Virus record (IMG/VR): IMGVR_UViG_3300037502_002229
Coordinates: 1 to 20,075 of that record
Strand: one strand, 5' to 3'
Source of the DNA: a virus
Length of the DNA stretch: 20,075 nt
A program made the position numbers and the translations under genes. Below, in pieces: positions 3,127 to 19,253 of the stretch. Positions within the stretch are counted from its first letter, which is position 1. The number at the start of each line of letters is the position of its first letter. The notes beneath the pieces were generated by a model, which worked only from the letters and a program-made list of their open reading frames with translations, was not told where the DNA came from and did not search any database.

Positions 3127-3340
3127 CGGGAATGACGGGCGGAGCCGAAATGCTTTGTCGAAGTATGTTGTCGACCGCATCGTTAAACTAGACATCGAAG
3201 GCCTTAAGCGCGTTGAAATTGAAGAGCGTCTCGGCGTATGTGACGAAACCATTCGCAAGTATTTGCGAGAAGCTGGCCGGCCCATTCACATGATTGGAAT
3301 GGCAGTTGTGAAAGCGCGAAAAGAAGGGAAGGGCAAATAA
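3110..3340 (+). CDS. Small helix-turn-helix DNA-binding protein, 76 aa
   Basis: The start at 3110 follows a good ribosome-binding site, GGGAGGG at 3098-3104, inside the end of the rusA-like gene. A single helix-turn-helix occupies about residues 22-54: a first helix VVDRIVKLDIEGL, then KRVEIEERLGV, then the recognition helix CDETIRKYLREAG. This is the homeodomain-like/resolvase-type HTH. The N- and C-terminal tails are basic. It lies directly before the small terminase and could be a transcription regulator or a packaging accessory, since HTH proteins often sit beside terminase genes. It contains the heptamer TTGGAAT at 3294-3300, which recurs at later gene junctions. Confidence 0.75.
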   Translation: MAQRNDGNDGRSRNALSKYVVDRIVKLDIEGLKRVEIEERLGVCDETIRKYLREAGRPIHMIGMAVVKARKEGKGK

Positions 3341-3341
3341 T

Positions 3342-3809
3342 ATGGGCAAGGCAGGCAGGCCAACCCACCTCAATGATGAAGTGCAGCGAATCATCTGTGA
3401 GGCTCTTGCGAACGGTAATTTTCGCAGCGTCGCGGCCGCAAGCGCGGGTGTGCCTTTGCGCACATTTCATGAATGGATGAAAAAGGGTGAAGAGGAGACT
3501 GACGAAAGGTGCATTCAATTTCGCCGAGCCGTTATTCAAGCAGAGAAGAATGCTGAAATCAGGGCCGTTCAAATGATTATGGCGAAAGCCGCGGAGGACC
3601 CAAAGCACGCCCAATGGTGGCTTGCCCACCGCTTCCCTGAGAGATGGGCAGAACGCTACAGAGGCCGCATCGAGCATACGGGAAAGAACGGCGGCCCTAT
3701 TCAGGTGACAGATGCCAGAGACAAACTCATTGAGAAGCTGTCTTCAGTCCTTGCGGGCAACACCACCGACACCGACGAATCTGAAGAAGATTCTGGCTCG
3801 CCTCACTGA
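3342..3809 (+). CDS. terS: Terminase small subunit (homeodomain-like HTH)
   Basis: Recognises the packaging site on phage DNA and hands it to the large subunit. The N-terminus GRPTHLNDEVQRIICEALAN opens a homeodomain-like helix-turn-helix: FRSVAAASAGV then LRTFHEWMKKGEEE. An amphipathic helix follows (FRRAVIQAEKNAEIRAVQMI). Then comes the motif WWLAHRFPERWAERY at about residues 89-103, which is characteristic of this group of phage small terminases and HTH proteins. The acidic C-terminus may contact the large subunit. The ribosome-binding site GAAGGG lies at 3328-3333. The 3' end overlaps the large terminase reading frame. At 155 aa the size is normal. Confidence 0.82.
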   Translation: MGKAGRPTHLNDEVQRIICEALANGNFRSVAAASAGVPLRTFHEWMKKGEEETDERCIQFRRAVIQAEKNAEIRAVQMIMAKAAEDPKHAQWWLAHRFPERWAERYRGRIEHTGKNGGPIQVTDARDKLIEKLSSVLAGNTTDTDESEEDSGSPH

Positions 3810-5040
3810 CAATGAAATCGATGCTCTCCTTTATGACTGGGAGGGCCTCTGGGCGAGAGAAAACCAGCTACCACCGGCTGGACCTTGGCGAGTTTGGCTG
3901 ATTAACGCTGGGCGTGGTTTCGGTAAGACTCGAAGCGCAGCAGAATGGGTGCGTCAACAGCTCGTCGAGATGCCTGGATGCCGGATTGGCATCATTGCTC
4001 GAACCTATTCCGACGCAACACAGGTATGCGTAGAAGGCGAATCTGGTCTGTTGTCTACATTCTCGCCAGCAGAGAGGGACGGCCTTGAGTGGAATCGCAG
4101 CTTAGGCGAGGGCATCTTAAAGAATGGAAGCCGTTGGACGGTATTCACCTCAGAGAAGCCGGACAGCTTGCGCGGGCCTCAATTTCACTGTCTCTGGGCT
4201 GATGAACTCGCGGCATGGGAAAAGAACAGGGCAGCATGGGAGCAGGTGCCTTTCGTGGTGCGCTTGCCATGGCCGTCGGCGCCTGAAAGGGCAGGTCGCA
4301 TCGTGGTGTCGACGACGCCTAGGCCAGTGAGGGAGATTCGAGAGCTACTCAAAAGCCCTGACACAGCTGTCACGGGCGGCACCTCTTTTGAGAACTGGAA
4401 AAACCTCAACAAGTTGGCGCAGGCGAAGCTGGAGGCCCTTCGAGGGACTCGCTTAGGCCGGCAGGAATTGATGGCTGAGATTCTCGACGATGTCCCCGGG
4501 GCTTTGTGGCAGCGGGCAAACATTGAAAAACACCGCCTACAGATTGCGCCTGAGTTGAGTCGGGTGGTGGTGGGTGTGGACCCTGCCGTCACCGCTGGCG
4601 AGGATTCAGACGAAACCGGCATCGTGGTGGCAGGCAAGGGCGTTGATGGCCGCTTTTATGTGTTGGCAGATAGGACATGCCGCCTTTCGCCCGATGGGTG
4701 GGCGCGTCGCACAATCGAGGCCTTTGAGGAGTTCGAGGGCGACAGGGTTGTAGCTGAGGTCAATCAGGGTGGGGACTTAGTCGAGCGCCTATTGCGCAGC
4801 GCATCGAAGAATGTGCCCTACAAAGCAGTGAGGGCAACCAAGGGCAAGAGGACACGGGCAGAGCCCATTGCGGCGCTTTACGAGCAGGGCAAGGTTTCGC
4901 ATGTCGGCATTCATGAGAAACTTGAAGACCAGCAATGCACATTCACTCCCGATGGTTTCGATGGAAGCCCTGACAGGGTGGACGCCTTGGTGTGGGCGCT
5001 TACAGAATTGTCAGAAGGGACTCGTGTCGTCATTCGTTGA
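3712..5040 (+). CDS. terL: Terminase large subunit (ATPase and nuclease)
   Basis: The motor that pumps DNA into the procapsid and cuts it. With the ATG at 3712, the conserved opening LARLTDNEIDALLYDWEGLWARENQ is a normal N-terminus for the family, except that it is preceded by about 28 residues overlapping terS. Walker A is AGRGFGKT at about 66-73, and Walker B is CLWADE with D164/E165. The RNase H-like nuclease has VVVGVDPAV (D290), then DETGIVVAG, and the late acidic motif DRVDALVWA (D421, D424). It belongs to the T4 gp17/Terminase_6 branch that is also found in gene transfer agents. The start is uncertain: 3712 has AGGTGA only three bases upstream, and TTG codons at 3730 or 3751 are alternatives. 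Confidence 0.93.
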   Translation: MPETNSLRSCLQSLRATPPTPTNLKKILARLTDNEIDALLYDWEGLWARENQLPPAGPWRVWLINAGRGFGKTRSAAEWVRQQLVEMPGCRIGIIARTYSDATQVCVEGESGLLSTFSPAERDGLEWNRSLGEGILKNGSRWTVFTSEKPDSLRGPQFHCLWADELAAWEKNRAAWEQVPFVVRLPWPSAPERAGRIVVSTTPRPVREIRELLKSPDTAVTGGTSFENWKNLNKLAQAKLEALRGTRLGRQELMAEILDDVPGALWQRANIEKHRLQIAPELSRVVVGVDPAVTAGEDSDETGIVVAGKGVDGRFYVLADRTCRLSPDGWARRTIEAFEEFEGDRVVAEVNQGGDLVERLLRSASKNVPYKAVRATKGKRTRAEPIAALYEQGKVSHVGIHEKLEDQQCTFTPDGFDGSPDRVDALVWALTELSEGTRVVIR

Positions 5041-5044
5041 ATAT

Positions 5045-5066
5045 TTGGAATGATAAAGGGAAGGCT
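5045..5066 (+). repeat. Junction repeat TTGGAAT (long form), before portal gene
   Basis: TTGGAAT starts four bases after the terL stop. The 22-base block continues through AAAGGG and AGGCT, which also serves as the ribosome-binding region of the portal gene. It matches 19 of 22 bases with 13863-13884, upstream of the tape measure. It has the same strand and position relative to the next start as the other copies. The role is unknown: promoter part, protein-binding site or translation signal. Confidence 0.6.
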
Positions 5067-5071
5067 AAGAT

Positions 5072-7210
5072 ATGGCCTGGAATCTCAAAGCAGCCGTTAA
5101 AGCATTGTTTGGCCCTGACGCCTCGAAGAGTGCCGGTGGGCTTTTGGCCGGTGTCACGATGGGCGGTGCCCGAGCGCCTCGGCGTGGTAGCAAAGAATTG
5201 ATGCTGGCCTACCGCGAGCAACCTTGGCTTCGGGCCATTGTGCAGCGCATCGCGCAAGACGTAGCCTCTGTGCCCTTGCGTCTTCTGGCTCCAGCGCGTC
5301 CGGCAGGCAATGGCCTTGTGGCGCGTTCGGTGGGCGCTTCTGGTGAGATTCGTCGGAAGATGTTGGACGACGGCCTTCAGAATGGAAGCTTGACGCTTGT
5401 TGAAGAGCACCCATTTCTAACGCTTCTCAACAAGATGAATCCCGCCCTTCGAGCTGTTGGAAGCATGACATGTACGCAGGCGTGGATTGACTTAAAGGGC
5501 GAGGCCTTTTGGGTGCTCGAGCGCAATGGTGCAGGCCAGCCAATCGAGGCATGGCCGGTGCCGCCACACTGGGTGACTGACACACCCACCGAAAGCAGGC
5601 CCACCTTTAGGATGCAGGCCAGCGGGTGGACAAAGGAACTCAAAGAAACGGACGTCATCTGGTTTAGAAACCCTGACTTAGAAAACCCATACCTCCGAGG
5701 CTCTGGCTTAGGTGAAGCTCTGGCAGACGAGATTGACGTTGATGAATACGCGGCGAAGCATGTGCGCGACTGGTTTTTCAACGGTGGCCGGCCTTCTGGT
5801 TTCGTCTCTCTTCAGGGGGCTGGTGAGGATGAGGTGACGCGGTTTGAGGAGAAGTGGCGCAGCCGTTACCAAGGCCTCGGAAAGGCCCACCAGATTCATT
5901 TCACGAATGCGGCCATCGGCTATGAGGATTTGTCTCACACCTTCCGAGACCAAGATCTTCTGGCCTTGAGACAGTATCAATCCGACTTGATGCGTCAAAC
6001 CTTCGGAGTGCCTCCTGAAATTCTAGGCATTATTCAAAACAGCAACCGCGCAACCATCGACTCAAGCTATTACCTCTACAGCCGAGGAGTGTTGGTGCCT
6101 CGAATGGTGCAGCTCTGCGACACATTGCAGACGCTCGCTGCCGAGTGGGACGAGCGCCTTATTGTGGATTTCCTTTCGCCGGTGCCTGAGGACGTAGAAT
6201 TCAAGAAAGCTGCGATGGTGGCCTTGCCCACCAATTACACCGTCAACGAGCATCGCGCCCTTGCTGGCCAGCTTCCAATCGACTCTGGAGATGTCATGTA
6301 TTCGGTGGCTCCGGCTGCACCTCAGTTTGTTGGCCTATCCAAAGAGCCTCAATTCACCAAAAGCCTGGGCCTCTGGAAGACAAACGAGACAGTTGAAAGG
6401 ATTGTTCGTACCCTGACTCGAGAGCAGATTGCTGAAATCATTGGGCCTGTTATTCGTGGCCAGTTTTCTCAGGTAGGAAAACAGACTCTTGACGGCCTCG
6501 GAGTGGTGGACTCAGGCGTCTTCTCTCTTGTCAATCCTCTGGTGAAAGACGCTATTCAGGAGTCTTCTGAGAAGATAACGGGCACCAACGAGACGACTCA
6601 GCAATACATAAGAGACACTCTGCAAGAGGGCATTCTGGCCGGTGAAGGCATCGACAAGCTGGCAGATAGAATCGAAGCCGTATTCGATGAGGCAGACAGC
6701 TACCGCGCGCGCATGATTGCTCGCACCGAAACCGTCTCAAGCGCAAATAAGGCGAAGCTGACAGCCTATGTCGCCTCAGGCGTGGTGGCAGGTAAGGAGT
6801 GGCTCTCAGTGCAAGACGCTAACACCAGAGACGAGCACCGACAGCTTGACGGTGACATCGTGGGCCTCGACGCACCCTTCCGCACTGACTTAGGGCAGGA
6901 GACGATGGCCCCTGGGCAATTCGGCATTGCGGCACAGGATATTAACTGTCGATGCACCGTGCTTCCAGTTACCGATGAAGCTGAAATCCGCTCGAAGGAG
7001 TGGCGCGTTGAAGAGTGGAAGCGCTTCGACCGCGAAATGGTGAAGCAAGAAAACAAGCTTGAGGCGGCAATGTTGGACGTATACGCCACCCAACGCGAGG
7101 CCGTGTTGAATGAGTTGGAAGCCACCTTCGGGAAGTCGATTCGAGGGCGACGAAAGAAGCTAAAGGCGAAGGCCAAAGCAAAGGGCCAGCTTGCCCTACC
7201 TATTAAATGA
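5072..7210 (+). CDS. Portal protein fused to a MuF-type head morphogenesis domain
   Basis: The portal is the dodecameric ring at one capsid vertex through which DNA enters and leaves. Residues about 1-430 are an HK97-family portal, with PWLRAIVQRIAQDVASVPLRL near the start, then an FRNPDLENPYLRGSGLG loop and later MRQTFGVPPEILGIIQNSNRATID. The C-terminal part, about 480-690, is a MuF/SPP1-gp7-like domain. Its marks are IARTETVSSANKAKL (from about 547), EWLSVQDANTRDEHRQLDG, APGQF and NCRCTVLPV (near residue 625). MuF proteins are minor head proteins bound to the portal inside the capsid. At 712 aa, it combines what are usually two adjacent genes. The C-terminus is strongly basic (RGRRKKLKAKAKAKG). 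The start is ATG 5072 after AAAGGGAAGG. Confidence 0.92.
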   Translation: MAWNLKAAVKALFGPDASKSAGGLLAGVTMGGARAPRRGSKELMLAYREQPWLRAIVQRIAQDVASVPLRLLAPARPAGNGLVARSVGASGEIRRKMLDDGLQNGSLTLVEEHPFLTLLNKMNPALRAVGSMTCTQAWIDLKGEAFWVLERNGAGQPIEAWPVPPHWVTDTPTESRPTFRMQASGWTKELKETDVIWFRNPDLENPYLRGSGLGEALADEIDVDEYAAKHVRDWFFNGGRPSGFVSLQGAGEDEVTRFEEKWRSRYQGLGKAHQIHFTNAAIGYEDLSHTFRDQDLLALRQYQSDLMRQTFGVPPEILGIIQNSNRATIDSSYYLYSRGVLVPRMVQLCDTLQTLAAEWDERLIVDFLSPVPEDVEFKKAAMVALPTNYTVNEHRALAGQLPIDSGDVMYSVAPAAPQFVGLSKEPQFTKSLGLWKTNETVERIVRTLTREQIAEIIGPVIRGQFSQVGKQTLDGLGVVDSGVFSLVNPLVKDAIQESSEKITGTNETTQQYIRDTLQEGILAGEGIDKLADRIEAVFDEADSYRARMIARTETVSSANKAKLTAYVASGVVAGKEWLSVQDANTRDEHRQLDGDIVGLDAPFRTDLGQETMAPGQFGIAAQDINCRCTVLPVTDEAEIRSKEWRVEEWKRFDREMVKQENKLEAAMLDVYATQREAVLNELEATFGKSIRGRRKKLKAKAKAKGQLALPIK

Positions 7211-7220
7211 ATTTGGCACG

Positions 7221-7227
7221 TTGGAAT
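7221..7227 (+). repeat. Junction repeat TTGGAAT, before prohead protease gene
   Basis: The copy lies ten bases after the portal stop and 17 bases before the protease ATG. It continues as TTGGAATTGA and then CACAGAA, a pattern shared with the copy at 12193. It is part of a set found at five gene junctions on the same strand. Confidence 0.55.
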
Positions 7228-7244
7228 TGACACAGAAAGAATGA

Positions 7245-8246
7245 ATGCCGATGGAATACAAACCGAAACTTCTGGACTCTGGGACATGGAAAGCCACCTT
7301 ACGCGGTGAAGGCAAGGTGTGCGCCGTGCGCAAAGAAGTCATCACAGACGTTGCGGCAACGGCCGATGGCCTGAATTTCATTCTGTCAACAGCCGCTGTC
7401 GACCGGCACGGTGACACGGTTTCTCAATCGGGCTGGAAGCTGGACAATTACCGGAAGAATCCGGTTGTCTTGTTTGGACATGATCAAAACAGCCCACCCG
7501 TAGGCCGCGCTCCTGTTGTCGTCGTCGAGGGCGACAAGCTGATTGCTAAGGGCGTCGAGTTTACACCGAAAGACTTGTCTCCATTCGGGCACATGATTGG
7601 TGAGATGTACCGTAAAGGCTTCATGAATGCCGTCTCCGTCGGCTTTCTTCCTGCAAAATTCAAGGAGAACGACGAGCGCGGTGGCCTTGCGATGGACTTT
7701 GAAGAGCAGGAATTGCTCGAGTTTTCAGCCGTGCCCGTGCCGGCCAACCCAGAGGCCTTGCAAGGTGCGAAGTCTGCCGGCATTGAGGTTACGCCTCTTA
7801 TTGAGTGGGCCTCGAAAATACTCGACACCAAAGACGGCACCCAGACGGTACAACGAAGCATGGCCGAGCGAGTTTATAAGTCACTTTCCCCGAGGAAATT
7901 TAAAATGGCACAGAGAAAACAAGAGCCCGTGGCACCGGACGAGCTGGCCCCGGAAGTCGAAAAGCCTGAGGTTGAAATTGAATTGCCTGAAGGTATGGGG
8001 CCTCTTGTTGATTTGCTCACCGGCCTCATGGGTGAGGTGAAGATGTGCCGGAAGGAAATGGGCGAGCTTGTCGAGAAAATGTACGAGATGAAAGAGTACA
8101 TGAAGGAATTGAAGCTGCCGGCAGAAAACCCAACGCAAGAAATGCCGCCTCTTGAGCCGATGAAGTCGTCTCCTGAGGTGTTGGCTAAGAAGGTTAACGA
8201 TGAGGTGAAGCGCCGCATCTCTGCCATGCTGGGAAAGCTGGGTTAA
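7245..8246 (+). CDS. HK97-type prohead protease with scaffold-like C-terminal region
   Basis: A serine protease (S78 family) that cleaves scaffold and capsid precursor during head maturation. The protease domain covers about residues 30-175. Expected catalytic residues are H79 in VLFGHDQ and S131 in MNAVSVGF. The hallmark ending ELLEFSAVPVPANPEAL carries E159 as the likely acidic partner. HK97 protease itself is about 225 aa, and here roughly 110 more residues follow. This tail is charged, rich in proline, glutamate and lysine, with a Met-rich predicted coiled coil (MCRKEMGELVEKMYEMKEYM), and looks like a scaffold. An in-frame ATG at 7905 with its own ribosome-binding site could express it alone. 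The start could be ATG 7245 or 7251; neither has a strong ribosome-binding site. Confidence 0.88.
   Translation: MPMEYKPKLLDSGTWKATLRGEGKVCAVRKEVITDVAATADGLNFILSTAAVDRHGDTVSQSGWKLDNYRKNPVVLFGHDQNSPPVGRAPVVVVEGDKLIAKGVEFTPKDLSPFGHMIGEMYRKGFMNAVSVGFLPAKFKENDERGGLAMDFEEQELLEFSAVPVPANPEALQGAKSAGIEVTPLIEWASKILDTKDGTQTVQRSMAERVYKSLSPRKFKMAQRKQEPVAPDELAPEVEKPEVEIELPEGMGPLVDLLTGLMGEVKMCRKEMGELVEKMYEMKEYMKELKLPAENPTQEMPPLEPMKSSPEVLAKKVNDEVKRRISAMLGKLG
7892..8246 (+). other. Possible internal start: separately made 113-aa scaffold protein inside the protease gene
   Basis: GAGGA at 7892-7896 stands eight bases before an in-frame ATG at 7905. The point is exactly where the protease domain ends and the charged coiled-coil tail begins (MAQRKQEPVAPDELAPE). 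Phage lambda makes its scaffold Nu3 from an internal start in the protease gene C in just this way. Production of the short form here is inferred from that precedent and from the ribosome-binding site, not shown. Confidence 0.5.
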
Positions 8247-8249
8247 GCG

Positions 8250-9836
8250 ATGCCGCTGTCTTTTGACTATCCTCAGAGCGCTACCGAGGCCGCGAGAAAG
8301 GCCTTGAAGCACAAAGAGGAGAAAGACAGCGAGTGCGGAACGCGAGTGGGTTGGTTTCGGGCGAAGCAGTTGGCCAACAGGGAGCCGCTCGAGCCTGAGG
8401 AAGTGCGCAGGACTTATAGTTTTTTGAGCCGGAGTGAGGTTTACAACACTGGCGAATATGTAGATGCAGACGGAAAAGAAGTCTGCGGAAGCGTGATGTT
8501 TGATGCTTGGGGTGGTGAGTCGATGTTGCCCTGGGCGAAGAAGAGAGTTGAAGAGTTGAATGTAGAAGAAGAGAAGCACCTAACCCGTAGCAAAGGAAAC
8601 GAAACCATGAGCGACACCAATGGCATTGACGCGGTGGTGGCAAAGGCTGTGGCCGATGCCATGAAGCCGCTTGAAGAGCAGTTGAAGCAGAAGGCGACGT
8701 CGAATTTCACTCCTCCCCCTGCTAAGGCAGAGGGCAACAGCACCATCGAATTCCACGGCAAAGAAGCCGCGGAAGGCTCTGGTTTGGGCTTCATTCGCTT
8801 TGCTAAGGCGAAGGCGACCGCTGCATTGCGCAGCCAGAAAGAGGGACGCTACGTCTCGCCTTCTGAAGTTGCCAAAGGCTGGGGCTACAACACTGTCGCG
8901 AAGGCATTGAATCAGAATGACTTCGACAACGGCGGCAGCTTGGTGCATCAGCAGTTTGCCTCGGAGATGATTGAGCTTCTCCGAAACAAGGCTGTCGTGC
9001 GCAAGGCTGGTCCTCGAGTGTTGCCGATGTTCGGTGGAAACCTGACAATCGACCGTCAATCGGCCGCTGCTACTGCTTACTATGGGCAAGAGTCGACTGC
9101 GATTACGCCTTCGGATCCGTCCACCGACCAAATCGTCCTCTCTGAAAAGAAGCTGACGGCTCTGGTTGCTGTCTCGAACGACCTCATCCGCAATGCCTCC
9201 ATCAGCGCGGAAGAGTTTGTCCGTGACGACCTCCTCAACGTTATGGCCATCCGCGAGGATTTGGCTTTCTTGCGCGGCATTGGCTCTGTCTCCGAGCCCA
9301 CTGGCTTGCGCAACCGCATCGCCTCGGCTCACGTCTACAACGAGACCGTCTCTGTTGAAGGTGCGCCCACCTTTGCCGAAATGAAGGCAGAGTTGGATAA
9401 GGCCGTTTCCAAGCTGGAATTGGCCAACGTGCCGATGATTAAGCCAGTTTGGTTCATGTCTCCTCGCACGAAGCTTGCCATCATGCGTTCGGCAGGCCCT
9501 GGCGCGGAAGGCACCAACAGCCTCGAGCGTGAAATGGTTGAGATGGGTACCCTTCGTGGATTCCCCTTCTACGCCACCTCACAGATTCCGACCAACCTCG
9601 GAACCGATGGCGACGAGTCTGAATTGTACCTCGTGGACATGTCGGAAGTACTCGTGGGCGACAGCCTCAACCTTGAAATCGAAGTCTTCCCCAATGGCGC
9701 TTGGTCGAACTCTGGCACCATCGTTTCGGGCATCTCGAACGACCAAACGGTCATCCGAGCCCTCTCGAAGCATGACATCAACCTCCGTCACACCACGGCA
9801 GGCGTGGTTGTGAAGGAACTCAGCTGGGCCTACTAA
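8250..9836 (+). CDS. Major capsid protein (HK97 fold) with an extra N-terminal domain
   Basis: Forms the icosahedral shell. The C-terminal ~350 residues are an HK97-fold capsid protein, with NDFDNGGSLVHQQFASEMIE, RVLPMFGGNLTIDRQ, EEFVRDDLLNVMAIREDLAF, PTGLRN, then GFPFYATSQIP and the closing DINLRHTTAGVVVKELSWAY. Before this lies a delta-domain-like helical stretch, VVAKAVADAMKPLEEQLKQK, normally removed by the prohead protease. The first ~110 residues are extra: a small domain with GTRVGWFRAKQLANREPL, EEVRRTYSFLSR and DAWGGESMLPWAKKRVEEL. This resembles a small phage domain ending in a WGG...W motif that I recall from other head-region proteins; its role is not known to me. An in-frame ATG at 8607 with AAAGGA would give a 409-aa capsid protein of usual size. 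Confidence 0.93.
   Translation: MPLSFDYPQSATEAARKALKHKEEKDSECGTRVGWFRAKQLANREPLEPEEVRRTYSFLSRSEVYNTGEYVDADGKEVCGSVMFDAWGGESMLPWAKKRVEELNVEEEKHLTRSKGNETMSDTNGIDAVVAKAVADAMKPLEEQLKQKATSNFTPPPAKAEGNSTIEFHGKEAAEGSGLGFIRFAKAKATAALRSQKEGRYVSPSEVAKGWGYNTVAKALNQNDFDNGGSLVHQQFASEMIELLRNKAVVRKAGPRVLPMFGGNLTIDRQSAAATAYYGQESTAITPSDPSTDQIVLSEKKLTALVAVSNDLIRNASISAEEFVRDDLLNVMAIREDLAFLRGIGSVSEPTGLRNRIASAHVYNETVSVEGAPTFAEMKAELDKAVSKLELANVPMIKPVWFMSPRTKLAIMRSAGPGAEGTNSLEREMVEMGTLRGFPFYATSQIPTNLGTDGDESELYLVDMSEVLVGDSLNLEIEVFPNGAWSNSGTIVSGISNDQTVIRALSKHDINLRHTTAGVVVKELSWAY
8592..8609 (+). promoter_or_regulatory. Internal ribosome-binding site and ATG in the capsid ORF
   Basis: AAAGGA at 8592-8597 is nine bases before ATG 8607, in frame with the capsid gene. 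The point separates the extra N-terminal domain from the delta-domain-like and capsid regions. This may be the main start of the capsid protein, with the 528-aa form made in smaller amount. Alternatively it is a relic of two genes that fused. Confidence 0.55.
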
Positions 9837-9857
9837 GCCTTGAAAGGATAGACACAC

Positions 9858-10304
9858 ATGGGAGCCCCACATATTGCAGACTTCGGGAAGTACTTTAAAG
9901 CCGCCTCGTGCAACGGCATCAGCATCACCGCCGCTGGCACTGGCGACAACGTTGCCTTGACGGGTGCAAGCATCGACCGTCTGGGTTACGGAAGCGCCAG
10001 CTTCGTCATTGCTTACAAGACGACGCTCGCCGCAGCCGAGACCCTGTCTTTCGCGGCTGAATACCAGTTGAGCTCAGACAACAGCAACTGGGATACCGCA
10101 GTCTCGTTGCAAGCGGCAACGGTTGCTCGCACCGGCGCGGTGACTGCCGGACACGGCGTGGTGAAGTTTGACGTCAACCTGGAAGGCGCGAAGCGTTACA
10201 TTCGCTTTAACTTCACGCCCAACCTGTCGGCCTCCGGCACGGACACCGCGGTGGTGTACGGCACGGCCATTCTGGGCGGCGCTGACTTGGTACCCGCAGT
10301 CTAA
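9858..10304 (+). CDS. Probable capsid cement (decoration) protein, 148 aa
   Basis: It lies directly downstream of the major capsid gene with ribosome-binding site AAAGGAT at 9842-9848. The sequence is all-beta in character: SASFVIAYKTTLAAAETLSFAAEY, DNSNWDTAVSLQAATVA, then a final strand region RYIRFNFTPNLSASGTDTA and AILGGADLVP. This pattern (IDR, sample-width comparison, 'FTPNLSASGTDTA', 'LGGAD') resembles phage capsid cement proteins of the Bbp16 kind, which bind the outside of the shell and stabilise it. The assignment rests on position and on remembered family pattern. Two consecutive stop codons (TAATAA) and a stem-loop follow the gene. Confidence 0.65.
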   Translation: MGAPHIADFGKYFKAASCNGISITAAGTGDNVALTGASIDRLGYGSASFVIAYKTTLAAAETLSFAAEYQLSSDNSNWDTAVSLQAATVARTGAVTAGHGVVKFDVNLEGAKRYIRFNFTPNLSASGTDTAVVYGTAILGGADLVPAV

Positions 10305-10319
10305 TAAAGTTGTGACACC

Positions 10320-10357
10320 GAAGGGGCTGGGCTGGCGGGCGCTCGCCTGGCCCCTTC
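10320..10357 (+). terminator. Stem-loop after capsid and cement genes; possible partial terminator
   Basis: GAAGGGGCTGGGC at 10320-10332 pairs with GCCTGGCCCCTTC at 10345-10357. This gives a 13-bp GC-rich stem with two adjacent G-U pairs and a 12-base loop. No U-run follows, so strong intrinsic termination is unlikely. It may reduce read-through into the connector genes or protect the 3' end of the abundant capsid mRNA. The next ribosome-binding site (AGGAG, 10363-10367) lies just outside the stem and stays free. Confidence 0.5.
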
Positions 10358-10372
10358 ACCATAGGAGATGTC

Positions 10373-10624: not shown

Positions 10625-10627
10625 CCC

Positions 10628-11790: not shown

Positions 11791-11793
11791 CCT

Positions 11794-12192
11794 ATGGCTT
11801 CGGTTGACGCTGATGTTGTTACCATGTTGCAGGCAACGCCGGCACTGTCGGGCGTTAGCGTCTTTCAGGGCCCTGTGCGCGAAATCGGGGCACTGGTGAC
11901 GCCCACCGCTGTCTTTGTGCTTCAGACTGGCGGCATCGCACCCACCCCATACCTGGGCACCGCAACCGATGTAAGAGAATCGGGCCTACAGGTGCGAATC
12001 CGAAGCGACGTGGCCAACGGGTACAATACCGGCGTCGAGCTCGCACAGACGGTGCTTTCGGCCATTCAACGCAAGACTGCAACTGGACGGGTGACAGCCT
12101 TCGTCAATGAGTCAGAGCCCACCTACCTGGGGCAGGATGACTACGGAAACTTTGAATGGAGCTTGAATGCTCGCGTCGTTTGGGTTGGCTAG
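11794..12192 (+). CDS. Tail terminator protein
   Basis: Caps the head-proximal end of the tail tube and sets the joining surface. At 132 aa it fits the family of minor capsid/tail-terminator proteins in siphophages. The marks are DVVTMLQATPALSGVSVFQGP at the N-terminus, a middle segment DVRESGLQVRIRSDVANGYNTG, and the C-terminal ESEPTYLGQDDYGNFEWSLNARVVW. The 'GLQVR.R...Y.TG' and 'YLG.DD.G..EWSLN' patterns are typical. GAAGGGTAGG at 11775-11784 can serve as ribosome-binding site. Confidence 0.78.
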   Translation: MASVDADVVTMLQATPALSGVSVFQGPVREIGALVTPTAVFVLQTGGIAPTPYLGTATDVRESGLQVRIRSDVANGYNTGVELAQTVLSAIQRKTATGRVTAFVNESEPTYLGQDDYGNFEWSLNARVVWVG

Positions 12193-12199
12193 TTGGAAT
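12193..12199 (+). repeat. Junction repeat TTGGAAT, before first tail tube gene
   Basis: The copy begins immediately after the terminator-gene stop and 34 bases before the tube ATG. It reads TTGGAATTGA with CACAGAA downstream, as at 7221. A separate ribosome-binding site, AAGGAGA at 12221-12227, follows, so here the heptamer is not simply part of the Shine-Dalgarno sequence. Confidence 0.55.
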
Positions 12200-12233
12200 T
12201 GAAGCCCACAGAATAACCGCAAGGAGAAAAACC

Positions 12234-12635
12234 ATGCCTTTAGCCGCACACAACCTCAAAGTCAGAATTCGCACCGCATCCGGCCTCGGAACTGACTCAG
12301 ACAACATGACAGGCGTCCATGACGTCGGCCTGAATCGCGTTCGAGATGAACTCGAAACGACTGACTTCAACGACACGTCGAAGAACTTCATCCTAGGCTT
12401 GCGTGGTGCGGAGGTTTCATTCTCCGGTGCCTACGAGTCGGCTGATACAGCCTACGGACGCATCGAAACCGCTTTCGGTGATGGTACTTCTGTTTGGGCT
12501 GTGATGCTGTGGAATGGGACCGCTGGCCATAACGTCGAATGCAAGGTGGTTTCTTTGGACATTTCAGGCGCTCGCGATGGCCTTGTCGAGGTTTCTGGGA
12601 CGCTAAGGGCCACAGGCGCGGTTGCCACTGTTTGA
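12234..12635 (+). CDS. Tail tube protein, copy 1
   Basis: A 133-aa beta-rich protein starting MPLAAHNLKVRI, with AAGGAGA at 12221-12227. An in-frame ATG at 12156 lies inside the terminator gene and is rejected. Conserved blocks are VRDELETTDFNDTSKNFILGLRGAEVSFSGAY and the closing VSLDISGARDGLVEVSGTL. The pattern of strands with 'E.TdF.d..k.fi.Gl.g...s..G' fits major tail tube proteins of siphophages, as does its position between terminator and chaperone. It is paralogous to the next gene, so the pair arose by tandem duplication. Confidence 0.82.
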   Translation: MPLAAHNLKVRIRTASGLGTDSDNMTGVHDVGLNRVRDELETTDFNDTSKNFILGLRGAEVSFSGAYESADTAYGRIETAFGDGTSVWAVMLWNGTAGHNVECKVVSLDISGARDGLVEVSGTLRATGAVATV

Positions 12636-12646
12636 TGAGGTGAGTC

Positions 12647-13315
12647 ATGCCAGTCGCAGCGCATAGTTGCATCTTGAAATACGGCAGCGGTACATACAAT
12701 GCGAATGCAAGCGCAACGACGCTCATCTCTGGAACCACCTATAGGGTGAGCGTCGCTACTAATCGCGTGATGAATCCGAACGTGTCTGTTGTTGTTAAGG
12801 ATGGTGGTGTTGCGCTTGCGACAACAGCCTACACCGTGGATTATTTAAAGGGCGAAGTGACGCTTAATTCCGCACCATCTGGCGCTGTGACTGTCGACTT
12901 CAACAACATCTCGATGCAGCCAGCCCTAGAAGCAAGAGAGTTTTCAATTAACCTCGTTCGAGATGAATTAGACTCTACTGTTTTCGGAGACACCGCAAAG
13001 GAATTCATCCTCGGCTTAAAGGGTGGCGGTGGCACCATTGGTGGCCTCGATGTGTTGTCCACGAATTTTCTCAACCTTCTTGCGCAAACAGAGTCAATCG
13101 AAAGCGTCTGGGAAGGTGGAAAAGTCATGGTGATGGAAATTGCACTGGCGCCTACAACGACTCGAATTTTTCGTGCTTTCGTTAGCATTCCTTCTCTCGA
13201 CTTGTCAGGCGCTCGCGACGGCCTCATTGAGGGCAGCTTCCCCTTCACTATTAACGAGAGAACGACGCCTCAGGCTGTTGGCGGTAGGTCAAGCTTTGCG
13301 TTTCTGACGTATTAA
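12647..13315 (+). CDS. Tail tube protein paralogue, copy 2
   Basis: A 222-aa relative of the preceding gene. It starts with MPVAAHSCILKY (compare MPLAAHNLKVRI) and shares VRDELDSTVFGDTAKEFILGLKGGG and VSIPSLDLSGARDGLIEG with copy 1. Exact DNA matches persist: GTTCGAGATGAA at 12339 and 12956, and TCAGGCGCTCGCGA at 12564 and 13205. The extra ~65 residues are an insertion near the N-terminus (about residues 13-85), beta-rich: TTYRVSVATNRVMNPNVSVVV...AYTVDYLKGEVTLNSAPSG. Such a segment could stand out on the tube surface. Which copy forms the main tube cannot be decided. The ribosome-binding site is GAGGTGAG before the ATG. Confidence 0.8.
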   Translation: MPVAAHSCILKYGSGTYNANASATTLISGTTYRVSVATNRVMNPNVSVVVKDGGVALATTAYTVDYLKGEVTLNSAPSGAVTVDFNNISMQPALEAREFSINLVRDELDSTVFGDTAKEFILGLKGGGGTIGGLDVLSTNFLNLLAQTESIESVWEGGKVMVMEIALAPTTTRIFRAFVSIPSLDLSGARDGLIEGSFPFTINERTTPQAVGGRSSFAFLTY

Positions 13316-13336
13316 CCTGCAGGAGGACATGAGAAT

Positions 13337-13705
13337 ATGAGCGAGCAGCCCTTAAGAAATAGCGCGTTAGAGCCTGACACCCTTGGTTTCGTTGAGTTTG
13401 AGCATAAGGGGCAGCGTTACGGAATCAAGCCACCCACCTTGCTTCAGCAGAAACAAGCAAAGCTGGCAGCAAAAACAAAGGACGGCATCGACGAAACGTT
13501 GATGGGAATCCTGCTTCTGGTTTCGTGCATTGTCGACCCTGCCACCGGCGCTACAGTCTTCACCCGTGCAGACATCGACTCCCTCATGAATCAACCTTCT
13601 ACGCCTAACAGCTTCATCGGAAAGGCATTGAAAGCCTTTGGCCAGTTGTCAGAGCAACAGGCAGAGGTCGAAACTTTTTTCGAGGCAACCGGCAACGCCA
13701 GCTGA
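13337..13705 (+). CDS. Tail assembly chaperone, short form (gpG-like)
   Basis: The zero-frame product, 122 aa, starting at ATG 13337 after AGGAGG at 13321-13326. Tail assembly chaperones coat the tape measure and recruit tube subunits; they are not kept in the virion. The position between tube protein and tape measure is diagnostic. The protein is mostly helical with LLQQKQAKLAAKTKDG, a hydrophobic helix ETLMGILLLVSCIV and a C-terminal region ending EVETFFEATGNAS. Its last codons overlap the slippery heptamer at 13675-13681. Confidence 0.85.
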   Translation: MSEQPLRNSALEPDTLGFVEFEHKGQRYGIKPPTLLQQKQAKLAAKTKDGIDETLMGILLLVSCIVDPATGATVFTRADIDSLMNQPSTPNSFIGKALKAFGQLSEQQAEVETFFEATGNAS

Positions 13706-13860
13706 TTTACGCGATTGCACGCGAAACAGGCGTTTTGCCGGACGAAATAGAGGCACGGTTGACAAGCTTTCACCTGGCCGAATGGGTGACGTCATATAAG
13801 ATGGAGAAAGAGGCCAATGATGAGGCCATGCGAAAGGCCAAAATGAAGCGCGGCCGGTAA
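13337..13860 (+). CDS. Tail assembly chaperone, frameshifted long form (gpGT-like)
   Basis: A -1 shift after codon 115 (13679-13681) moves ribosomes into an open frame that runs to TAA 13858-13860. It adds 59 residues for a total of 174 aa. The added part contains LIYAIARETGVLPDEIEARL and SFHLAEWVTSYKMEKE, followed by a basic tail. This '...TG..PDEI...F.L.EW...Y..E' pattern is what gpT-type extensions of siphophage chaperones look like. The extension has no plausible start of its own, and it fills the 155 bases between the short form and the tape measure junction. The join is 13337-13681 with 13681-13860. Confidence 0.82.
13675..13681 (+). promoter_or_regulatory. -1 programmed frameshift site TTTTTTC
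   Basis: The sequence in the zero frame is GAA ACT TTT TTC GAG, giving the X_XXY_YYZ heptamer T TTT TTC. The zero-frame stop TGA (13703-13705) follows 24 bases later, close enough for a typical tail-chaperone shift. I did not identify a clear downstream stimulatory hairpin by eye. Confidence 0.82.
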
Positions 13861-13862
13861 GG

Positions 13863-13884
13863 TTGGAATAAGAAAGGGTAGGCT
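13863..13884 (+). repeat. Junction repeat TTGGAAT (long form), before tape measure gene
   Basis: Starts two bases after the chaperone long-form stop. It shares 19 of 22 bases with 5045-5066: TTGGAAT, AAAGGG and AGGCT are identical, with single-base changes between. It ends six bases before the tape measure ATG and contains its likely ribosome-binding site. Confidence 0.6.
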
Positions 13885-13890
13885 TTCAAC

Positions 13891-15663
13891 ATGGCACTGA
13901 GTCTCGGTACCCTCTTTGTGAAGTTGAACGCTGACCCTTCTCAGCTCGTTAAGGGCATGAATGATGCCGCCGACAAGGTGGCAAAATTCGGAAACAAGAT
14001 GAACGAGGTGGCCGGAAAGCTTGGAGCCATCGGCGTCTCGATGACTGCCATCGGTGCCGGAGCCATTCGCCTCGCCTCGCAGTTTGATTCACAGGTGAAG
14101 ACAGCCACTGATGAGCTTGGCAATTCATTCAACGCCATTGCCGTTGAAATAGGAAGGGCACTTGTGCCAGCCATTCAAGCGCTCTCACAAGGCCTGACGG
14201 TTGTTGCTAATTATTTTAGAAGCCTGTCACCGGAAACGAAGCAGATGGTTGCTGGTTTTGCGGCTGTTACGGCTGCGACATTGACGTTGACGGCCGGTGC
14301 AGCAAAAATCATTTCAGCATTCACAGCCCTTGCGCCTGTAATTACCGGTGCACTTTCTCCAGTTGCTGGCGCGATACTCCCGATTGTCGCTGTTATTGCA
14401 GGCATCATCGCTATTGTTCCTCTGCTTTGGGCTGCATGGAAAAACAATTTCGGCAACATTCAGGGTTTCACTGGCGCTGTTGTTGACTGGATTCAAGAGA
14501 AGTGGGCCTCCTTTAAAAGCTTTTTCGGTGGTGCCATCGACTTCATCGGCAAGGCCTGGAGCAACCTTACAGAATTTCTCTGGAAAAGCTGGGCGACCGC
14601 AATGAAGACGGTGGCCGGATGGGCTGCAAAAGTCGCAAAGGTTTTCGGTGCAGACTGGGCTTATGAGCTCGAGGCCTTCAATGAAACTATTGACGAAATC
14701 GCAAACAGAGGTTTCGGTGGGTTGGTTGACGATGCTGTTGAAGGCGCAAAGGTGATGGCTTTTGCTTGGAAAGAAGGTGCGTCGGATATTGCTGGGGCTA
14801 TTAAGGACAAACTGGGCGCAGCCATTCGAGACGTCATCGGCGAATACGGGCAAGGCTTGGAGAAAATGAAGAAAGATTCTGGCGTTTCAGCAGGAGCAAA
14901 GCCGAAAAAACCAGTGATTATGATGCCGGAACTCCACATCACCGGAAAGGTTGAAGAGGAGGCCACGAAAGTTATTGATTCAACAGCCAATCAATTCAAC
15001 GAGGCTATGGGTAGCGCGGCAAACAGGCTTGCTGCAAATATGGGCGAGGTTGGAAGCATCATTCAGAATGCGGTACAGATGTCTACAATAGCAGGGCCTT
15101 GGGGCGCTGTTGTGAGCGTGGTTTTAGACATCCTCATGAAGACAGAGAGTTTCTCGAAATATGTTGGGAAACTTTTGGAAGTGCTTGGCGCAATCGTTCA
15201 GCTTCTGGATTTTGTTCTCGGCCCCATATTCGACGCGATGACATGGTTGTTTGATCAAGTGCTTGTCTTCCTTGATTGGGTGAATACAGCCATCGGAAAT
15301 TACGCAAAAGAAATAACACTTCAGGGCACTGCCTCTGAAGTTGTTGTCGAAGATGCAAACACAAAACTCACATATGATGGAATCGGTCGACTTGGAGACG
15401 CAGCCACAGAGACGGCAACGACACTGAATGAGCTGAACGCCTCTCTGACAAACATTCCGGCAGGATTCAAAATTGCCGCAGCTCGCTTCAATGCGACAGC
15501 GCCTTCTGTTTACGACTTCGGAATGGGCGCAAACATGCAAGAGATTGAAGTTAACCTAAACCTTGACGGGCGACAGATTCACAAGTCAATCGTGCTCGCG
15601 AATGCTCGAGGCCAATATATTCACCGAGGCGGCGTAATGCCTTCTAAGTGGTGGGGTGCTTAA
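13891..15663 (+). CDS. Tape measure protein
   Basis: Sets tail length during assembly and is ejected ahead of the DNA. It starts MALSLGTLFVKLNADPSQLVKG, a normal opening for siphophage tape measures, followed by long helices. A strongly hydrophobic stretch at about residues 118-183 (FAAVTAATLTLTAGAAKI...ILPIVAVIAGIIAIVPLLWAAW) is likely the membrane-active segment used at DNA entry. A second helical/hydrophobic region lies near the C-terminus (LEVLGAIVQLLDFVLGPIFDAM). At 590 aa it is short; using the usual ~0.15 nm per residue, the tail would be about 90 nm. I see no lytic transglycosylase or peptidase domain. Confidence 0.9.
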   Translation: MALSLGTLFVKLNADPSQLVKGMNDAADKVAKFGNKMNEVAGKLGAIGVSMTAIGAGAIRLASQFDSQVKTATDELGNSFNAIAVEIGRALVPAIQALSQGLTVVANYFRSLSPETKQMVAGFAAVTAATLTLTAGAAKIISAFTALAPVITGALSPVAGAILPIVAVIAGIIAIVPLLWAAWKNNFGNIQGFTGAVVDWIQEKWASFKSFFGGAIDFIGKAWSNLTEFLWKSWATAMKTVAGWAAKVAKVFGADWAYELEAFNETIDEIANRGFGGLVDDAVEGAKVMAFAWKEGASDIAGAIKDKLGAAIRDVIGEYGQGLEKMKKDSGVSAGAKPKKPVIMMPELHITGKVEEEATKVIDSTANQFNEAMGSAANRLAANMGEVGSIIQNAVQMSTIAGPWGAVVSVVLDILMKTESFSKYVGKLLEVLGAIVQLLDFVLGPIFDAMTWLFDQVLVFLDWVNTAIGNYAKEITLQGTASEVVVEDANTKLTYDGIGRLGDAATETATTLNELNASLTNIPAGFKIAAARFNATAPSVYDFGMGANMQEIEVNLNLDGRQIHKSIVLANARGQYIHRGGVMPSKWWGA

Positions 15664-15666
15664 GCC

Positions 15667-16446
15667 ATGCCTTTTCTGTCTGCGAGCGGCATTGAGATTC
15701 CAGTTGCAGTCGACACCTTCACCGAAGAGGTGAGAGAGGTGGGCTCTACCGTGCAGGCATTCTCCGGCGCATTGGTGAGAAGCCGCATCGCCACAAAAAG
15801 AGACATCGAATTTGAGGTGCCACTGACGGCAAATACGCTTGCGGGGCAATACGAGAGGTGGCTTCGAGGTGAAGGTGAGATGTGGACTTTCACTAACCTT
15901 TACGGAAGCAAGGGTACCGGCCCCGAGTCTGGTTATTCCGGCACCATTCAGGCTTCGAGCGGCATTAGCGGCACCGGCAACCTAACTGTCGCATCTGGAA
16001 GCCATGCCTACCGCATCGCGCCAGCCGGTAGCAGTTGGACTTTCGCGGTTTGGTATTCGACGGCCGCAAGCCCCAGTTACACCCACTATGTCGTCACCTC
16101 GGCAGGGAATAAGTGGGTTGATGGCGTTAGCAATAACGGCGCATCGACAACCTGGGCCGCTGTCTCGAATGGCATTTTGACGTTAACGGGTGGCACTGAC
16201 AGGCGGTGGGATAACCTCTTCGCCTTCCCTGCGACGGTAGACTCGACGTGGCCACCAATATTCTACGGAACGGCCGGCAATGGTGACGTTGCCTCAGGCG
16301 CAGCCCTCATGCCCTACTTGAATCTGACAGGCGATGCCATCCTCGAGACGACTCGAAGCGCGATGGGTGAGGTAATGGGCACCTCGGTGCTCGCGGCCGA
16401 TGGCAGCACGAGGCGTAAGTTGACGGTGAGGCTTGCTCAACGATGA
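15667..16446 (+). CDS. Dit-like distal tail protein with inserted beta domain
   Basis: The first gene after the tape measure, where the distal tail protein is expected; it joins the tube end to the hub. The N-terminal ~75 residues (SASGIEIPVAVDTFTEEV...RDIEFEVPLTANTLAGQYERWL) and the final ~35 residues (LETTRSAMGEVMGT...RRKLTVRLAQR) look like the two halves of one beta-sandwich. Between them, about residues 78-220 are glycine-, serine- and tryptophan-rich (SWTFAVWYSTAA, YTHYVVTSAGNKWVDGVS, RRWDNLFAFPA). They resemble a LamG/concanavalin-type sugar-binding fold. The LamG idea is inference from the strand pattern. The stop overlaps the next start as ATGA. Confidence 0.68.
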   Translation: MPFLSASGIEIPVAVDTFTEEVREVGSTVQAFSGALVRSRIATKRDIEFEVPLTANTLAGQYERWLRGEGEMWTFTNLYGSKGTGPESGYSGTIQASSGISGTGNLTVASGSHAYRIAPAGSSWTFAVWYSTAASPSYTHYVVTSAGNKWVDGVSNNGASTTWAAVSNGILTLTGGTDRRWDNLFAFPATVDSTWPPIFYGTAGNGDVASGAALMPYLNLTGDAILETTRSAMGEVMGTSVLAADGSTRRKLTVRLAQR

Positions 16447-19214
16447 GAACAATAGGTGCAAGACAGCAGGCCGTCATTGACGGTGGCCTTAAAGGGTACC
16501 GCCTCAAAGTGGAACTCAAAGACGGCCTTAGCCAGTGGCGTGACATGTCGACTTACCCTGGCTTTGACTCTGTCGTCTCTGCCTCATGGGATGAAAACAT
16601 CGACGATGGCATGGCCTCGGCATCGGTTGAGTTTATTCGAGAGTTAGACGGCCTAAGCATTGCGCCCCTTGTTTCGTCTGGGCCGAACAACACCTTCGAC
16701 CCTACCGCCTCAAACTACCCACCCATCTCGGTAAACAACGAAATCAAAATATACGTGGCCGTCAATTCGGGTGATGGGACGCCGGCCAGCGGTGACTACG
16801 AGCTTTTCTTCCACGGCATCATCGACAGCTACAACGCCTCAGACTTCATCATAAAAGTCGAATGCCGAGACATGGCCGGCAAGCTGACAGATGCTTACAT
16901 TGAGAAGGAGCGTGTCTACGCAATAGCAGCTGTTTCCGGCGCGCCTGTGGGCATTCGCATCTGGGCCCCTGGCGAAGTCTGGGCGCTTGGTGAGTATGTG
17001 ATGCCCACGGAGGCCAATAGGACAATCTCTGGCTCTGGACGCTTCTTTGAGGTTTCAACGGCAGGCACGGCAGGTACCGCAGAGCCAGCGTGGGATATTT
17101 CCGGAGCAACAACAGACGGGACAGCTGTCTTCACATATGAGGCAGCGCTGACACCTACGACGGGCTATGCTGTCCAATCTGTCATGCAGCAGATTCTCAA
17201 TGACAACGGGCTTTCCTCAATAACGCTCGCGACTCCTGTATCTCCGAGCTGGAACATTCTTCCCTATAAGCAAGACCGCACCTCTGTTTTCGATGCCCTG
17301 CGAGCGCTGGCGACTCAAATTGGCTGGGACTTACGCATGAAGTGGGACAGCGGAACGTCGGCATTTAAGCTGACGTTTTATGATCCCAACCGCACAAAGA
17401 CGACTCCAGACTACACCTTCGACAGCGACGACTATGAGCAACTTTCTGAATTGTCGTTAGACAAACAAGGCGTCAGAAACGTCATTCAAGTAATCTATGG
17501 TAACCGCTCATCACTTGCCCCATTAGGCCAAAGCAAGCGAACCATTCTTCAGGTTTCCGACGCGACGAGCATATCGAAATATGGACGCCTGTTTTTTGAG
17601 ATTGCGGAAGAAGCAACCAGCAACATTGACTCATCAGCCGAAGCAACGACGCTCGCCAATGCCGCGCTTGCTGACTTAAAGGAGCCCACAGTCTCTCACA
17701 CAGCAGACCTGGCATTCGGCTTCCCTTATGCCGAGTTGAATGACTTGTACCGCTTTACGGCCAATGGGAGGCATTATAGCAGCAACCAAGACTTAGCCCT
17801 AGTGGCCGTCTCTCATTCTGTAGCAGATGGCATCATGCGCACCTCTCTCTCGTGTAGAGGCAAGCCTACGGCAGGGACTCAGGTTTGGACGAACGCTAAT
17901 GTCAGGCCGGTGGGCAGCGGCACAATTCACAGCACCGAAATCTTGGCGACTGAGAGCGGCATCACCGCTTCTTCGTCGGCCATCATCGGGGGAACTCGCC
18001 TCAAGTTCGATGGAACGTCAGTCCTGAAAGACATTCCACTGGAGATTGAGGTCCATGTTTCCGACACCACCGGCTTCACGCCCAGCGCTTCGACGTTGGT
18101 TTATCAAGGGACAAGCAGGGAGGTGGAGGTTTCTAAGTTAAACCCTGGGGCCACCTACTATGCGCGCTTCGTGCCTTGGTACCGAAACTCAACGATGCTG
18201 GTGCGAGGACAGCCTTCGGCAGAGTTTTCTTTTGTGGCTGGGCGTGGTGTCTCTGCTCATATGCCGTCAGAGGTGGACTTCTCAGTTCGTCCACTTAATG
18301 CCTTCTTGGACAACCGCTTTGGCGATGGCGACAGAAAAGACGACTTGCCAGACCATTGGACGTTGACGGCCGGTACATTGGGGACTCAAGTCACCTCGAA
18401 ATATGACGACACAGCTGGTGTGGGTAATGCTCGCACGGGCCGCTATTATGTGCGCTTCAATACCTCATCATCGACGGGTGCGATTGAGAGTCGACCGGCC
18501 ATCGTGGAAGGTGGGCGACGGTATAAAGTCTCGGCACTCTCCAAAAACATTAGCGGCACCGGAAGCTGGAATCTTAAGGTTTATTGGCTGAAATATGACC
18601 AAACAGCACTCTCCAATGAATCCATCGCGCAGTCAGTGACGGCCGACGTGGGCACCTGGGTTGACAGGGCCGAGTATTATACGGCGCCAGCTAATGCCCG
18701 TTACGCCAAAATCGAAGTCTCGACGGCCACCACCTCAACGCAAAGTTTTGATGTTGACTCTGTTCGCCTCGAGGAAGTGCCGGAGATTGCCCGTTACTAC
18801 CATTACCCAACCTTCGGAATTGGCGCTTCAATACCGGATGCAACCTCCACTATCGTCAACTTCAACACCGCTTTCAATTCACAGACGAACGGAAACGTGA
18901 CGACGGGCGCCGCTTGGAAGTATACCGCGCCGAGGCGTGGGTATTACCTAATCCAGACAGCCATCACCATCGTCTTCAACAACAACGACACGGGCACTTG
19001 TTACATTGAAGTCTTCAAAAATGGCACCGTTGATCGCCGAATGACGAGGCAGTCTGGGCACGTCCTTCGAGAAGAGACGCAATATATGGCCTCTTCTATA
19101 CTGTTTCTCAATAAGGGAGACTACATCGACGTCAGAATTTATCAATCCACCGGCGGGGCTCGAAGCTTAGAGGCTGGCTCTCAGACTTACGTCGAGATTT
19201 TGCAGGTTGGTTGA
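16443..19214 (+). CDS. Tail tip hub protein with several adhesion domains
   Basis: A 923-aa modular protein at the tail tip. About residues 1-160 and 240-490 resemble the phage hub (gp27/gp44-like) fold, with LKGYRLKVELKDGLSQWRDM, FHGIIDSYNASDFIIKVECRDMAG, then VMQQILNDNGLSSI and RTSVFDALRALATQIGWDLR. Inserted at about 170-235 is a small module common in phage tip proteins: IWAPGEVWALGEYV, STAGTAGTAEPAWD, TDGTAVFTYE. Residues ~525-610 look like a fibronectin III domain (LEIEVHVSD, REVEVSKLNPGATYYARFVPW). Residues ~618-780 look like a carbohydrate-binding jelly roll. The end, ~781-923, is C1q/TNF-like (APRRGYYLIQTAITIVF, FLNKGDYIDVRIYQS). Attachment to the host surface is the likely task. Domain calls are by pattern. 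Confidence 0.82.
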   Translation: MRTIGARQQAVIDGGLKGYRLKVELKDGLSQWRDMSTYPGFDSVVSASWDENIDDGMASASVEFIRELDGLSIAPLVSSGPNNTFDPTASNYPPISVNNEIKIYVAVNSGDGTPASGDYELFFHGIIDSYNASDFIIKVECRDMAGKLTDAYIEKERVYAIAAVSGAPVGIRIWAPGEVWALGEYVMPTEANRTISGSGRFFEVSTAGTAGTAEPAWDISGATTDGTAVFTYEAALTPTTGYAVQSVMQQILNDNGLSSITLATPVSPSWNILPYKQDRTSVFDALRALATQIGWDLRMKWDSGTSAFKLTFYDPNRTKTTPDYTFDSDDYEQLSELSLDKQGVRNVIQVIYGNRSSLAPLGQSKRTILQVSDATSISKYGRLFFEIAEEATSNIDSSAEATTLANAALADLKEPTVSHTADLAFGFPYAELNDLYRFTANGRHYSSNQDLALVAVSHSVADGIMRTSLSCRGKPTAGTQVWTNANVRPVGSGTIHSTEILATESGITASSSAIIGGTRLKFDGTSVLKDIPLEIEVHVSDTTGFTPSASTLVYQGTSREVEVSKLNPGATYYARFVPWYRNSTMLVRGQPSAEFSFVAGRGVSAHMPSEVDFSVRPLNAFLDNRFGDGDRKDDLPDHWTLTAGTLGTQVTSKYDDTAGVGNARTGRYYVRFNTSSSTGAIESRPAIVEGGRRYKVSALSKNISGTGSWNLKVYWLKYDQTALSNESIAQSVTADVGTWVDRAEYYTAPANARYAKIEVSTATTSTQSFDVDSVRLEEVPEIARYYHYPTFGIGASIPDATSTIVNFNTAFNSQTNGNVTTGAAWKYTAPRRGYYLIQTAITIVFNNNDTGTCYIEVFKNGTVDRRMTRQSGHVLREETQYMASSILFLNKGDYIDVRIYQSTGGARSLEAGSQTYVEILQVG

Positions 19215-19221
19215 TTGGAAT
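19215..19221 (+). repeat. Junction repeat TTGGAAT, after hub gene
   Basis: Directly follows the hub stop codon and lies 32 bases before the ATG at 19254. The ribosome-binding site GGAGGA at 19245-19250 is separate. It is the last of the five junction copies on the same strand. Confidence 0.55.
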
Positions 19222-19253
19222 CCTACTTCTTAAGCTATTGCAACGGAGGAAAC

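Follow-up and report, generated by a model that had tools for sequence, protein, structure and literature searches.

Stoperators are repressor binding sites that are spread over a phage genome as short, asymmetric sequences, mostly in one orientation. They are 13 bp long and play a role in the regulation of transcription (PMC3203893). In cluster K mycobacteriophages, the start-associated sequences (SAS) consist of the 13-base GGGATAGGAGCCC, lie 3-7 bp from the start codon of non-structural genes, and can in part pair with 16S rRNA (PMC3203893). The middle promoters of T4 carry a MotA box centred at -30, 12 +/- 1 bp from the -10 hexamer (PMC2988021), while in the jumbo phage AR9 the late promoters share a single phage-specific consensus, AACA-N6-TA/G, located before many late genes (PMC5312081). 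The subject considered here is the heptamer TTGGAAT, repeated at gene junctions in the late region of an uncultured phage known from IMG/VR record IMGVR_UViG_3300037502_002229; the window is this record over its whole extent of 20,075 bases. The observation of TTGGAAT at gene junctions is confirmed, with one copy dropped, and the heptamer is probably the middle box of a phage-specific late promoter that occurs repeatedly and has a host-type -10 element.

In its full form, taken from an alignment of the junction copies anchored at the heptamer, the element reads TTGR-N4-TTGGAAT-N9-NANRMT-N6-A. T4 middle promoters appear to be the most similar in their working, as in both cases a host-type -10 would be combined with a phage-specific box that replaces the -35 element and is repeated before many genes; the 15-base box of the window is centred near -29. 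The element does not seem to be a T4-type member because the sequence of the box and its spacing differ: the MotA box has the consensus TGCTTtA at 12 +/- 1 bp from the -10, whereas TTGGAAT lies 9 bp from the hexamer. Moreover, unlike T4 middle promoters, those of the window precede virion genes, and several are predicted to be leaderless. The resemblance to AR9 lies in one phage-specific consensus that recurs before many late genes, but AR9 has its own multisubunit RNA polymerase and leaders of 26-491 nt, and no polymerase gene was found among the scanned proteins of L002 (IMGVR_UViG_3300023179_000368), a close and near-complete relative of the window.

The original prediction named stoperators and SAS as analogues, and both fit poorly, since the element carries a -10 of its own, begins 24-42 bases 5' of the start codon, and stands among virion genes. 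With the cluster K SAS it has in common a short word, mostly in one orientation, that precedes many phage genes and is clade-specific; it differs in sequence, in its distance of 24-42 bases from the start codon, in its association with virion genes, and in the -10-like hexamer. Cluster A stoperators are likewise short, asymmetric phage sites repeated mostly in one orientation, but their sequence and length are different; in the window, each site has a -10-like hexamer at fixed spacing and is placed at a late gene start.

Six copies of TTGGAAT had been reported, all on the + strand; every coordinate proved right, and the - strand contains none. The earlier estimate of about one copy by chance was too low, as dinucleotide shuffles gave 2.9 copies (both strands) and an order-2 Markov model 1.8 (+ strand). 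At least six copies were reached in 8 of 100 dinucleotide shuffles of the whole window (both strands), so the total weighs little by itself and placement is what counts. Five of the copies lie in gene gaps, 0-10 bases 3' of a stop codon, as had been described. The predicted gaps sum to 336 bases, and the five copies start in five separate gaps, an over-representation that no 7-mer equalled when the gaps were dinucleotide-shuffled 2,000 times (the maximum was four gaps, in three shuffles). It also holds that long gaps carry the motif, as this is true for all gaps of at least 29 bases save the 68-base gap 10305-10372, which contains a hairpin. The distances from heptamer to start codon are as first given, except that the protease distance is 23 rather than 17 bases if the gene starts at 7251, the position aligned with L005 and L006, two of the fragmentary relatives introduced below; the alternative start is 7245.

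The copy before terS (3294-3300, + strand) does not belong to this set and is not counted as functional. It lies inside the gene 3110-3340 preceding terS, is not conserved, and has neither the T of the -10 nor TTG at -8. In L006, which has the same small gene before terS, the homologous position reads TTGGCCG. A functional site at 3294 was therefore rejected, and the copy looks like a coincidence.

Scans of viral contigs yielded, besides L002 (29,988 bases, TerL 84% identical), three fragmentary relatives: L004, L005, and L006. About 71% of bases are identical between the window and L005 and L006, and 67-78% across the longer pieces of L004. The heptamer is conserved at three junctions, namely that of the portal (L005 1330, L006 1775), that of the protease (L005 3506, L006 3950), and that of the tail tube (L004 3274). 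The heptamer is kept there while its surroundings change, because the 20 bases 3' of it are just 52% identical between the window and these relatives; at the protease junction, its distance to the stop codon also differs among relatives.

L002 has the same gene order as the window and no TTGGAAT at any of the five junctions. The heptamer is missing before the tape measure gene in both L004 and L002, where the gap is about 4 bases, and the L002 junction homologous to the exported-protein site has a Shine–Dalgarno sequence without the element. The likely start codon of the L002 portal lies about 40 bases further on, so the gap there is not very short. Relatives in which a junction is kept and the heptamer lost had been proposed as a refutation; L002 is such a case, and L004, L005, and L006 contradict it. 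Absent in L002 but kept in the other three, the element is thus lineage-specific rather than missing from relatives, and it is not essential in this phage family.

The hallmark of sigma70-type -10 hexamers is an A in the second and a T in the sixth position, and transcription from such promoters is expected to start 6-8 bases 3' of the hexamer. NANRMT begins 16 bases after the heptamer's first base; its A17 and T21 do not vary among the nine sites compared, and A and T occupy hexamer positions 2 and 6 at this fixed spacing in all 10 junction copies. Six bases after the hexamer, A is present in most sites, and TTG occurs 8 bases before the heptamer in every junction copy but that of the tape measure. 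Copies of TTGGAAT at other places in the retrieved loci served as non-junction controls (n=26, with contigs retrieved by the pattern itself left out): A17 together with T21 was found in 2/26, the full NANRMT in 0/26, and TTG at -8 in 1/26. The original prediction had offered a regulator site, a late promoter element, an RNA-processing site, or a module boundary; the late promoter is favoured over the other three because the -10-like hexamer stands at a fixed distance at every junction copy, with TTG at -8 in all but one.

Several points weigh against this explanation. The extended columns rest on just nine sites from about five loci, and the -10 and TTG columns were spotted in the alignment before testing. 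The register-shift test, which corrects for this only partly, gave p = 0.0016, 0.0004, and 0.0006 (three statistics) for the downstream columns and p = 0.04, 0.009 (top-four sum), and 0.06 for the upstream ones, values that are optimistic because the columns had been noticed beforehand; this choice does not affect the control copies. In favour of the promoters, a weight matrix run over the window scored the five sites at 25-33 bits against 7.8 for the next + strand match, but it had been trained on the same sites that it retrieves. A generic sigma70 promoter scan did flag the protease site (7213-7242, as TTGGCA-18-AAGAAT), but the other 4/5 sites fell below its threshold. The tape-measure copy has no TTG, and L002, with its TerL 84% identical, is without the element at five of five junctions.

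All five candidate promoters of the window are on the + strand. At the portal (5037-5072, 33.3 bits), TTGA at 5037-5040 (about -36) is followed by TTGGAAT at 5045-5051 and AAGGCT at 5061-5066. The sequence after the heptamer reads GATAAAGGG AAGGCT AAGATA TGG, in which the third block ends with the A of ATG; the predicted start is at or 1 base from ATG 5072, so the transcript would be leaderless, and the site is kept in L005 and L006. The protease site (7213-7251, 27.8 bits) comprises TTGG at 7213-7216, TTGGAAT at 7221-7227, and AAGAAT at 7237-7242, continuing after the heptamer as TGACACAGA AAGAAT GAATGC CGATGG, and transcription is predicted to begin within about 2 bases of ATG 7251 (start codon 7245 or 7251). 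The tape measure site (13863-13891, 25.1 bits) has TTGGAAT at 13863-13869 and TAGGCT at 13879-13884, without TTG at -36; with AAGAAAGGG TAGGCT TTCAAC ATG after the heptamer, its predicted start falls on ATG 13891.

In the other two sites, the predicted start falls on a Shine–Dalgarno sequence. The tail tube site (12185-12234, 31.1 bits) contains TTGG at 12185-12188, TTGGAAT at 12193-12199, and CAGAAT at 12209-12214, followed from the heptamer on by TGAAGCCCA CAGAAT AACCGC AAGGAG; its predicted start, 12221, is at AAGGAG, 13 bases before ATG 12234. The site of a small exported-type protein (19207-19254, 30.6 bits) contains TTGG at 19207-19210, TTGGAAT at 19215-19221, and TAAGCT at 19231-19236, reads CCTACTTCT TAAGCT ATTGCA ACGGAGG after the heptamer, and would start at about 19243, beside ACGGAGG and 11 bases before ATG 19254. 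Counted from the heptamer's first base, the distances to the start codon form two classes, 24-30 and 39-42 bases, which a single promoter geometry would explain by placing the predicted start either at the ATG or at the Shine–Dalgarno sequence. On the - strand, the matrix gave a separate match of 18.6 bits at 17389, inside a tail gene, which is probably due to chance.

From these features of the sequence we infer promoter activity, start sites, leaderlessness, and an acting factor, as follows. Numbered from the -10-like hexamer, TTGGAAT would span about -28 to -22 and TTGR about -36 to -33. The host RNA polymerase would read the hexamer, presumably through a sigma70-family factor, and the TTGR-N4-TTGGAAT box, centred near -29, would replace or overlap the -35 element, most likely being contacted by a putative phage-encoded activator or sigma-modifying factor. 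Transcription of the portal, protease, and tape measure genes would start on or within about 2 bases of the ATG and give leaderless mRNAs, while that of the tail tube and exported-type protein genes would start at the Shine–Dalgarno sequence, 11-14 bases 5' of the ATG. In this way, the late operon may be re-initiated at the head of its blocks. We advance only tentatively the stronger proposal that this is a new class of phage-controlled promoters, in which a phage factor binds the 15-base TTGR-N4-TTGGAAT and makes the host RNA polymerase start at the ATG of virion genes, so that the mRNAs of portal, protease, and tape measure would have no leader.

Two other promoter assignments were rejected. 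If TTGGAA were a classic -35 element, the -10 expected 17 bases on would coincide with or lie beyond the start codon in the case of portal, protease, and tape measure; for a sigma54 promoter (GG at -24, GC at -12), most aligned sites have no GC at the needed spacing.

The reader of the motif is probably encoded in the early region of the phage, little of which lies in the window, because the scanned relative L002 is without the motif. Among the scanned early proteins of L002, neither a sigma factor or RNA polymerase nor an activator or sigma-remodelling protein of the MotA/AsiA type was found; they include a protein with a LexA-type DNA-binding domain, an Erf-type annealing protein, and a PD-(D/E)XK nuclease. 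Two adjacent small proteins of L002 (1260-1631 and 1761-2018, - strand) combine an N-terminal zinc-ribbon-like CxxC, recognized by eye, with a C-terminal ribbon-helix-helix-like part (weak Pfam matches) and are candidate regulators. If the late promoter explanation is true, the late transcription map can be read from sequence for an uncultured phage group, leaderless translation of the portal and tape-measure genes is predicted, and a putative phage factor that alters the promoter choice of the host polymerase is indicated. Furthermore, the proposed promoter set occupies many junctions of one lineage but none of a close one, which offers a natural test of the gain and loss of a regulon.

A sub-case of the late promoter, namely host-type promoters served by the host sigma factor without any phage factor, is doubtful. 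The hexamer does keep both key bases of the host -10, and TTGR at -36 with its 18-base spacer is like an ordinary promoter, but the heptamer is much more constrained than would be expected of a host spacer. In addition, the extended pattern was not enriched in 398 sampled Pseudomonadota genomes (21 matches vs 8 for the reversed control), which is a partial test. It is rather unlikely that the sites are stoperator-like and have no promoter of their own, so that a repressor or pausing protein on the 8-base direct repeat in TTGR-N4-TTGGAAT damps or times late transcription. The single orientation, the repeats in gaps, and the half-repeat 8 bases apart agree with such a role, as do the LexA-type protein and the two small zinc-ribbon/ribbon-helix-helix-like proteins of L002; yet L002, which has those regulators, has no sites, and such a role would leave unexplained both the A and T kept at fixed spacing (17 and 21 bases downstream) and their alignment to start codons or Shine–Dalgarno sequences.

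Slightly less probable again is an SAS-like RNA element in the late transcript, 5' of the ribosome site, acting in translation initiation or mRNA processing. Its appeal is that the motif is always on the coding strand and begins 24-42 bases 5' of the start codon, but the distances to the start codon and Shine–Dalgarno sequence vary between two classes while the spacing to the -10-like hexamer is constant. When folded, the nine sites have no structure in common, there is no Rfam match, and in SAS the distance to the start codon is 3-7 bases (PMC3203893). We give little credence to a module-boundary or recombination sequence marking exchange joints. In the vicinity of the tail-tube start and of a heptamer copy, the identity of L004 to L002 jumps to about 98% (it is 59-77% over most of the preceding 2 kb and 83-95% afterwards), but this is a single breakpoint, identity resumes at the ATG and not at the heptamer, the gene order of L002 is unchanged without the word, and the -10-like columns are not predicted. 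A chance cluster is scarcely credible, even though shuffles reach the total count, given the placement in gaps and the conservation at three junctions in relatives.

As far as the collections searched show, the element appears to be specific to this small clade. The exact leaderless-class pattern was found in 26 contigs among 2.9 million viral contigs, of which those of L005 and L006 (L048 and L045) alone had two matches; the others look like chance, mostly in AT-rich DNA. In an unrelated phage lineage, L033 and L044 carry TTGGAAT unusually often, 10 and 6 times, on one strand and in coding sequence, mostly without the extended pattern.

Scans with the portal, TerL, MCP, tail tube, and tail protein for further relatives returned the same four closely related contigs. 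Among named phages, the best TerL matches are only 41-49% identical to that of the window, and the 923-amino-acid tail protein has zero matches. In the search for a prophage or host, MCP aligned to genome contigs gave no match, and TerL led only to relatives of 40-45% identity in Sphingomonadales genomes, which are without the extended motif.

Among the genes of the window are those of TerL, portal, protease, capsid, tail tube, and tape measure, and those of a DnaB-type helicase, a DNA adenine methyltransferase, and RusA. The L002 contig wraps round a genome of about 28 kb, because its ends (1-1790 vs 28199-29988) overlap at 92.5% identity, but it seems to join two strain variants. The left part of L002 is 94% identical to L004. 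The abrupt change of identity between these two at about 3300-3400 of L004, from roughly 60-76% to about 98%, has the form of a joint at which head and tail modules were recombined, making L004 a mosaic.

The strong hairpin at 10320-10357 (+ strand, -33.2 kcal/mol) follows the capsid gene and the next small gene. Hairpins of different stem sequence occupy the same gap in L004 (1405-1462, -31.8 kcal/mol) and L002 (16574-16638, -31.4 kcal/mol), and a terminator or RNA-stability element after the capsid genes is possible. Finally, the tail tube gene (12234-12635) and the next gene (12647-13315) have common repeats of 68 and 41 bases that are 74-80% identical, which suggests that a tail tube gene was duplicated long ago.

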